64,000 bases of DNA from Streptomyces sp. Tu6071 (GTDB lineage Bacteria > Actinomycetota > Actinomycetes > Streptomycetales > Streptomycetaceae): contig NZ_CM001165.1 in NCBI RefSeq assembly GCF_000213055.1, positions 3,618,945 to 3,682,944 of the forward strand. The letters are read 5' to 3'. Positions within the stretch are counted from its first letter, which is position 1, and each line of letters opens with the position of its first letter. Shown piece by piece: positions 11,707 through 17,462 of this stretch. A program made the position numbers and the translations under genes. The notes beneath the pieces were generated by a model that made no database searches, had not been told where the DNA came from, and was given only the letters and a program-made list of their open reading frames with translations.

Positions 11707-11778
11707 GCGGGTGTAGTTCAGTAGTAGAACACCCCCTTTCCAAGGGGGAGGCGCAGTGTGCGATCCCTGTCACCCGCT
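11707..11778 (+). tRNA. tRNA-Gly (anticodon TCC)
   Basis: The cloverleaf folds fully: acceptor GCGGGTG with CACCCGC, D-arm GTTCAGTAGTAGAAC, anticodon stem CCCCC/GGGGG around TTTCCAA, and a T-arm; the discriminator base is T. CCA is not encoded. It reads GGA codons. It lies 66 bp before a tRNA-Gly(GCC). Confidence 0.93.
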
Positions 11779-11843
11779 CTGCACCGCTCGACCGTGAGGT
11801 AGGGTGGTCACCGCACCGCACGACGTGAGTCGTGGGAGCATCT

Positions 11844-16326: not shown

Positions 16327-16399
16327 GCGGACGTAGCTCAGTTGGTAGAGCGCAACCTTGCCAAGGTTGAGGTCGCCAGTTCGAACCTGGTCGTCCGCT
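16327..16399 (+). tRNA. tRNA-Gly (anticodon GCC), copy 2
   Basis: Identical to the tRNA at 11844-11916, with the same 3' flank through the terminator for roughly 45 further bases (one difference). It lies 46 bp after the response-regulator stop. Confidence 0.96.
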
Positions 16400-16405
16400 C
16401 AGCGA

Positions 16406-16431
16406 AAGGCCCCCCGGGAACGGGGGGCCTT
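16406..16431 (+). terminator. Terminator after tRNA-Gly copy 2
   Basis: A perfect 11-bp stem (16406-16416 with 16421-16431) closed by a GGAA tetraloop and followed by CTTCG. Confidence 0.85.
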
Positions 16432-16457: not shown

Positions 16458-16483
16458 CGCCATGTTTCACGTGAAACATGGCG
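16458..16483. other. parS: parS-like ParB-binding palindrome (consensus core)
   Basis: A 26-bp perfect palindrome is centred at 16470/16471. Its core GTTTCACGTGAAAC (16464-16477) is exactly the parS consensus described for Streptomyces and closely matches the bacterial parS family. ParB would load here for origin-region segregation. Both flanks are intergenic. Confidence 0.88.
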
Positions 16484-16540
16484 GTCGACGGGTGCGGGGC
16501 GATGTTCCACGTGGAACATCGCCCCGCACCCGTCGACCGC
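16481..16540. other. 60-bp perfect palindrome with variant parS core
   Basis: Every base from 16481 to 16510 pairs with 16511 to 16540. The centre holds GTTCCACGTGGAAC (16504-16517), a parS core with one symmetrical substitution per half. The palindrome touches the consensus parS on its left and lies between the tRNA-Gly terminator and the convergent purC stop, so as RNA it could also act as a very strong purC terminator. Confidence 0.85.
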
Positions 16541-16562: not shown

Positions 16563-17462
16563 TCAGCCCCAGCGCACGCCCGTCAGCTTCTCGTACGCCT
16601 CGACGTACTTCGCCCGCGTCCGCTCCACGATCTCGGCGGGCAGCTCGGGCGGCGGCTGCTCGCTCTTGCGGTCCCAGCCGGAGACGGGGGAGGTGAGCCA
16701 GTCGCGGACGAACTGCTTGTCGAAGGAGGGCTGGGCGTGGCCCGGCTCCCAGGAATCGGCCGGCCAGAAGCGCGAGGAGTCGGGGGTGAGGACCTCGTCG
16801 GCGAGGACGAGTTCCTCCCCGTCGAAGCCGAACTCGAACTTCGTGTCGGCGAGGATGATCCCGCGCTCACGGGCGATGTCCCGGCCCCGGGCGTAGACCG
16901 CGAGGGTCGTCTGCCGGAGCTGCGCGGCGGTCTCGGCGCCGACCCGGCGGGCCACCTCCTCGTAGCTCACGTTCTCGTCGTGCTCGCCGACCTCGGCCTT
17001 CGTCGCCGGGGTGAAGATCGGGCCGGGCAGCTCGGAGCCGTCCTCCAGGCCCTCGGGGAGCGCGAGCCCGCACACCGTGCGGGACGCGTTGTACTCGACG
17101 AGCCCCGAGCCGGTGAGGTAGCCGCGCGCGACGGCCTCGACCGGGATCATGTCGAGCGAGCGGCAGACCAGCGTGCGCCCGGCCCAGGAGGCGGGGGCGC
17201 CCTCGGGCAGCTTCGTCGACAGGACGTGGTTCGGGACGAGGTCGGCGAGCTGGTCGAACCACCACAGCGAGAGCTGCGTGAGCACGCGCCCCTTGTCGGG
17301 GATCTCGCTGGGCAGCACCCAGTCGTAGGCGGACAAGCGGTCGCTCGCGACCATCACGAGCTCGCCGGCCTCGTTCCGGTAGAGGTCGCGCACCTTGCCG
17401 GTGTGCAGATGCACCAGCCCCGGCACCTGTACGGGCTCGGGCTTTTCTACGAATCCGGACAC
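16563..17462 (-). CDS. purC: SAICAR synthase PurC
   Basis: PurC joins aspartate to CAIR with ATP to form SAICAR. The 299-residue protein has the family features GKVRDLY near the N-terminus, SAYDWVLPSEIPDKG, VRGYLTGSG-like VARGYLTGSGLVEY, and IILADTKFEFGFDG. GTG 17462 follows GGAGG. It is monocistronic and converges on the tRNA-Gly, separated from it by the parS-like palindromes. Confidence 0.97.
   Translation of the reverse strand: MSGFVEKPEPVQVPGLVHLHTGKVRDLYRNEAGELVMVASDRLSAYDWVLPSEIPDKGRVLTQLSLWWFDQLADLVPNHVLSTKLPEGAPASWAGRTLVCRSLDMIPVEAVARGYLTGSGLVEYNASRTVCGLALPEGLEDGSELPGPIFTPATKAEVGEHDENVSYEEVARRVGAETAAQLRQTTLAVYARGRDIARERGIILADTKFEFGFDGEELVLADEVLTPDSSRFWPADSWEPGHAQPSFDKQFVRDWLTSPVSGWDRKSEQPPPELPAEIVERTRAKYVEAYEKLTGVRWG

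Follow-up and report, generated by a model that had tools for sequence, protein, structure and literature searches.

The gap between a tRNA-Gly gene and purC raises the question of why a ParB site should form the centre of a flawless 60-bp palindrome just downstream of a gene. The window, i.e., the whole 64-kb stretch that was analysed (C1:3618945-3682944, on a contig of 7.36 Mb), carries the tRNA-Gly (GCC) gene, called by ARAGORN and Rfam RF00005, at 16327-16400 on the forward strand as the left neighbour of the gap. Convergent with it on the reverse strand is purC, for SAICAR synthase (16563-17462; stop codon 16563-16565), which matches the NCBIfam models TIGR00081 and NF010568 above cut-off. 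The best-matching named relatives of this purC are from Streptomyces. A tRNA-Gly (TCC) gene at 11707-11779 accompanies the GCC gene; ARAGORN found no TCC gene in the matching 20-kb locus (L165) of the sister genome G010. Directly 3' of the tRNA lies an ordinary terminator hairpin, AAGGCCCCCCGGGAACGGGGGGCCTT (16406-16431), which is kept in G010 and, with A's at one end and T's at the opposite end, is possibly a two-way terminator. It is followed by parS 1, a motif match to the consensus GTTTCACGTGAAAC (16464-16477) with a positional counterpart in G010. A palindrome scan showed that parS 1 is enclosed in a perfect 26-bp palindrome of 2 x 13 nt (16458-16483), which overlaps by 3 bp with the perfect 60-bp palindrome of 2 x 30 nt without a spacer (16481-16540), the proposed parS-cored terminator hairpin. 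The core of the latter, parS 2 (16504-16517), also a motif match, is the symmetric variant GTTCCACGTGGAAC. The two cores are 40 bp apart from start to start, and the centre of the 60-bp palindrome is located 52 bp downstream of the purC stop codon. The cores, their distance and the palindrome are thus placed exactly as in the sequence-only reading that first drew attention to them. When up to two mismatches are allowed, these are the only parS matches in the 64-kb window, while dinucleotide shuffles gave a mean of 0.03.

Both sites belong to a large chromosomal parS set. The GTTYCACGTGRAAC pattern occurs 63 times in the genome, always at 3.635-4.310 Mb, with 16 copies to the left and 47 to the right of position 3787000 in the dnaA-dnaN gap (3786544-3788727). 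A right-hand bias of streptomycete parS has been published (PMC8743542, available part). The purC-gap pair is the left-most of the 63 sites, at some 152 kb from the dnaA-dnaN gap, which bears out the earlier suggestion that it lies within the oriC domain. The palindromic sequence, the clustering near oriC and the presence of parA and parB all agree with chromosomal parS, as the sequence-only reading had held. ParB is recognized by a domain model above cut-off; the ParA matches fall below the equivalog cut-offs, and parA was called from these matches together with the place of the gene between gidB and parB. The parts seen of three papers on Streptomyces chromosomal parS clusters describe the same 14-bp palindrome, clustered around oriC, and large parS sets are already known in streptomycetes: 20 closed genomes have a mean of 22.8 sites (range 11-65), S. 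albidoflavus J1074 having 65 (PMC8743542, PMC4852455, PMC12511625). Among 392 genomes of the genus and the present one, only G175 (73) and G265 (70) exceed 63 copies; G311 has 63, G010 has 54, and the remaining genomes have mostly about 7-35, as read by eye from the table. The ParB proteins of the present genome (L179) and G010 (L180) have a mean identity of 71 % to those of 37 other loci, which are 85 % identical among themselves, and the ParB of G004 (L205) is likewise low in identity. Divergence of ParB as the driver of parS expansion was rejected, since no comparable separation is seen for parB in the further parS-rich genomes considered.

The 60-bp palindrome is one of a class. In the 400 kb of this genome that were scanned, all 13 perfect palindromes of at least 24 bp without a spacer are centred on parS. 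Six of them are at least 32 bp long, the purC-gap one being the longest; the others follow a dacA-like gene named by eye (34 bp), gidB/rsmG (38 bp) and parB (40 bp), precede trxA (42 bp), or lie at 3843380 (32 bp). Upon shuffling the right flanks among the 63 parS sites, a mean of 0.19 palindromes of at least 32 bp was obtained (maximum 3 in 2000 shuffles), against the six seen; in each of four parS-rich genomes treated in this way, 0.05-0.19 were expected on average and 2-6 seen. Most parS sites have no long palindrome.

The long palindromes are concentrated at gene 3' ends. The centres of the six are located 29-69 bp from a predicted stop codon, the one after gidB at 69. The distance to a gene end is at most 70 bp for all six, versus 20 of the 57 other parS sites (Fisher p 0.003), the cut-off having been chosen after these data had been viewed and the gene ends being predictions of a simple custom gene caller. 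For palindromes of at least 24 bp, the numbers are 10 of 13 versus 16 of 50 (p 0.004). Flank symmetry over all parS sites of the genome did not rise significantly near gene ends (7.23 of 14 versus 5.97 elsewhere, p 0.13). Palindromes of at least 32 bp were also found in G311 (3 among 49 scanned of 63 sites) and G137 (5 among 41 scanned of 44). In these two genomes, which had not been used to set the cut-off, 7 of the 8 lie no more than 70 bp from a gene end versus 37 of the remaining 82 sites (p 0.025; not significant for G311 or G137 taken alone, p 0.10 and 0.19), and both palindromes of this length in G010 are near gene ends as well (not significant, p 0.18). In the scanned stretches of the four genomes together, a predicted gene end is followed within 70 bp by 15 of the 16 such palindromes, and at 75 bp by the sixteenth; the 16 represent 13 separate loci, since those at parB and trxA are common to the present genome and G010, and one locus is shared by G311 and G137. 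This recurrence lends indirect backing to the earlier idea of a dual parS and terminator.

It is not a genus-wide trait of the parAB region, a candidate that was rejected: among 154 parS sites near parB in 39 loci, only the present genome and G010 have palindromes of at least 32 bp, two each, yet G311 and G137 have them elsewhere. A parS site near parA, some 2.0 kb ahead of where parB ends, is surrounded by imperfect symmetry reaching 36-46 bp in some genomes of the genus (L179:395 in the present genome and L180:395 in G010; L186, L194 and L199). The only palindrome of at least 24 bp without parS in the scanned parts of G311 and G137 is a perfect one of 40 bp on GAATTC (L233:19176-19215 in G311). 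At G311:C1:1510706-1510753, after a gene end, two neighbouring parS sites have complementary GC flanks and look, by eye, able to form the arms of one hairpin.

Gene orientation around the parS clusters was also considered. In a contiguous region of 340 kb, nine of 28 clusters are in convergent gaps, nine in co-directional gaps and one in a divergent gap; four lie inside called genes and five in gaps of more than 700 bp, which are probably missed genes. When these last nine are left out, convergent gaps hold 9 of 19 clusters versus 16 % of gap bases (p 0.001) or 21 % of gaps (p 0.010). A preference for gene ends is shown by ordinary hairpins as well: perfect ones (arm of at least 9, loop 3-8) were found in 24 of 205 parS-free 3' flanks of genes versus 6 of 180 gene-free 5' flanks. 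The parS palindromes are the only perfect hairpins (arm of at least 7, loop 3-8) found in the gaps at the dacA-like gene, parB and trxA; in the gidB-parA region, and in the gaps at 3843380 and purC, other hairpins are also present.

As a terminator, the 60-bp palindrome offers a stable, GC-rich hairpin shortly 3' of a stop codon; as single-stranded DNA, the 60-mer has a fold energy of -42.5 kcal/mol (z -13.2). It has no U-tract directly after the stem, the tail being CATGTTTCACGT, and a consensus terminator scan did not report it. Hairpin terminators without U-tracts have been described in actinobacteria. The hairpin tails are weak, with a mean of 2.58 T per 8 nt over 19 tails, an uncontrolled value to which adjacent parS sites contribute some of the T's. 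An ordinary hairpin (arm of at least 8, loop 3-8) is present within 150 bp of the stop codon in 55 of the 78 purC loci of relatives that extend at least 100 bp beyond the gene, the centre of the first hairpin being at a median of 30 bp; for the loci numbered up to L101, the count is 52 of 61. In the present gap, the first hairpin met from purC is the parS palindrome. Sequence, symmetry, position and the recurrence of the class at gene 3' ends are plain observations, and the explanation favoured for them, with moderate confidence, is a pair of parS sites, the second of which also serves as the terminator hairpin of purC.

The nearest relative, G010, shares only part of the arrangement. Its purC gap has retained the tRNA hairpin and parS 1 and has neither the second site nor the 60-bp palindrome. 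The latter has therefore either arisen recently or been lost recently, and is not required in G010. Loss of symmetry in close relatives, named in the sequence-only reading as an outcome that would refute it, is thus seen in the sole close relative available, although the first parS is kept there. The flanks of parS 1 differ symmetrically between the two genomes (CATG...CATG here, GATG...CATC in G010). The space of the second parS in G010 (about L165:9805-9910) is taken by a tandem repeat of the 12-bp GGTGCGGATACG, followed by an A/T run, AAATTTTTTTTATTTTTTT, which is unusual for a high-GC genome. No parS-like site was found within 900 bp downstream of purC in any of 80 named loci (77 with the full 900 bp; L060, L091 and L118 are shorter), nor in the purC gap of 28 genus loci from the best 30 of 390 matching genomes, apart from the present genome and G010. 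An ancestral, conserved purC-gap parS was therefore rejected, and the site looks like a gain in the lineage of these two genomes.

The main alternative, judged unlikely though far from negligible, is that the gap contains a plain parS doublet and that the perfect palindrome is a mutational by-product on which no selection acts. As parS is palindromic, a strand being synthesized can turn back on itself at the core and use one arm as the template for the other, by which long perfect palindromes arise in one step. Fast turnover fits this explanation: only the parB and trxA palindromes, two of the six, persist in G010, while those at purC, gidB, the dacA-like gene and 3843380 are absent or shorter there, the last having an imperfect counterpart. 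In addition, similarity to the G010 sequence (12 of 16 bases) is seen in a portion of the left arm of the 60-bp palindrome, and the right arm is without a clear counterpart. The G137 gap matching G311 1485208 is without parS, and no long palindrome exists at the G311 counterparts of G137 102862 and 8182762; turnover of the long parS palindromes is fast. What a mutational by-product does not predict is the concentration at gene 3' ends in separate genomes, nor that the corresponding position behind an orthologue is occupied by an ordinary hairpin, as seen by eye at G137 102862, where G311 and the present genome carry ordinary small-loop GC hairpins instead of the parS hairpin. The kept hairpins also bear on the matter. 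Between the present genome and G010, the hairpin 3' of parB has an internal compensatory change at pair 12 (C-G to G-C), and the trxA-gap hairpin has a paired change at pair 18 (G-C to T-A), the last pair in G010; in the hairpin shared by G311 (1391542) and G137 (97459), the outermost pair changed from G-C to C-G. The shared stems of the three contain no unpaired change. As evidence for selection on pairing, the paired changes are weak: the sample comprised only hairpins that are perfect in both genomes, and two of the three changes are located at the edge of a stem, where they may be due to chance. Fold-back copying may also be the source on which terminator selection acts.

A special role in ParB loading, in which an extruded hairpin (a cruciform parS) or the doublet itself would alter the loading of ParB, is improbable. 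It is suggested by the strength of the DNA hairpin and by the spacing of the cores, as neighbour distances in this genome peak at 38-39 bp. Of 32 distances up to 120 bp, 13 are 37-39 bp (mode 38), and the purC-gap pair is one of two pairs at 40 bp. A Rayleigh test at 10.5 bp was positive for these distances (R 0.46, p about 0.001, n=32), which is due to the 38-39-bp mode: with distinct spacings only, R was 0.32 (n=17), and in G010, the test failed (R 0.23, p 0.26, n=25). The spacings in G311, G137 and G191 (its first ten places) are different again. Helical phasing was thus rejected as a rule, and with it the earlier reading of 40 bp as four helical turns; the spacing fits a lineage-dependent habit. 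An array at G191:C7:33297-33482 has 29-bp steps (29, 29, 29, 56, 29), unlike the 38-bp habit of the present genome. Tandem duplication, as a possible sole origin of the spacing, was weighed by spacer identity: adjacent 38/39-bp spacers gave 0.79, 0.28, 0.44, 0.61 and 0.50, and non-adjacent ones 0.33 on average (maximum 0.61). Besides, a special loading role leaves the gene-end position unexplained, and most parS sites do without a long palindrome.

The variant core itself requires no special explanation. The C-for-T change in it occurs in 17.5 % of the half-sites of this genome, and cores with the change in both halves were seen twice, where independent half-sites predict 1.92 (in G010, once against 3.38 expected). 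Selection for core symmetry, which the sequence-only reading had seen in the symmetric change, was rejected, double variants being no commoner than independence predicts. The same sequence is the perfect parS of P. aeruginosa, the core of parS2 and parS3 with the highest in vitro affinity for ParB, according to the part seen of PMC4368675; that organism is a Proteobacterium, and long GC arms are not described in that part. The least probable reading is that the element is a terminator only and that its second core, 2 of whose 14 bases depart from the Streptomyces consensus, is left unbound by ParB. This core, besides its standing in P. aeruginosa, recurs within parS arrays (3816817 in the present genome, 3537805 in G010) and is found multiple times in the genomes G399 and G402, from a different family within the order.

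A comparable arrangement is known from Neisseria, where a short recognition sequence serving another process, the DNA uptake sequence, likewise lies inside rho-independent terminator hairpins (PMC2397512, available part). There, two closely spaced inverted copies form the hairpin, whereas here, a single palindromic parS is the apex to which GC arms are added. The parts seen of PMC8743542, PMC4852455 and PMC12511625 do not mention terminator hairpins around parS; the word "terminator" is absent from the available text of PMC12511625, and in that of PMC5521831, it refers to cloning terminators only. A search of titles and abstract beginnings, covering few subscription papers, found no paper on parS in terminators.

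In the favoured reading, the parS doublet would delimit the ParB-binding domain on its left side, in a chromosome of the Streptomyces type, and each core, judged by sequence and position, would be a loading site for the ParB clamp. The second parS would be the apex of a GC-rich hairpin where most of the relatives examined carry an ordinary hairpin. This hairpin most likely also ends the purC transcript, as well as read-through from the other side; the ParB-loading site next to it would thereby be spared the passage of RNA polymerase. Alternatively, the benefit may be that gene-end hairpins tolerate new parS copies.

More tentatively, and with rather less confidence than for the purC gap itself, it is proposed that centromere and terminator are fused repeatedly in those Streptomyces that carry enlarged parS sets. 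A parS palindrome would take the place of the loop in a hairpin at a gene end, and a single element of 30-60 bp would both load ParB and stop RNA polymerase. If true, these organisms would possess ParB-loading sites shielded from transcription, and a cheap route for the multiplication of parS across the oriC domain. The proposal bears on how some streptomycetes reach 50-70 parS copies, and on how the loading and spreading of ParB coexist with transcription. A parS that is also a terminator hairpin would give a concrete link between ParB loading and transcription: hairpins at gene ends could be the places in which new parS copies originate, as the copies would do little harm there and the loading site may be protected from RNA polymerase.
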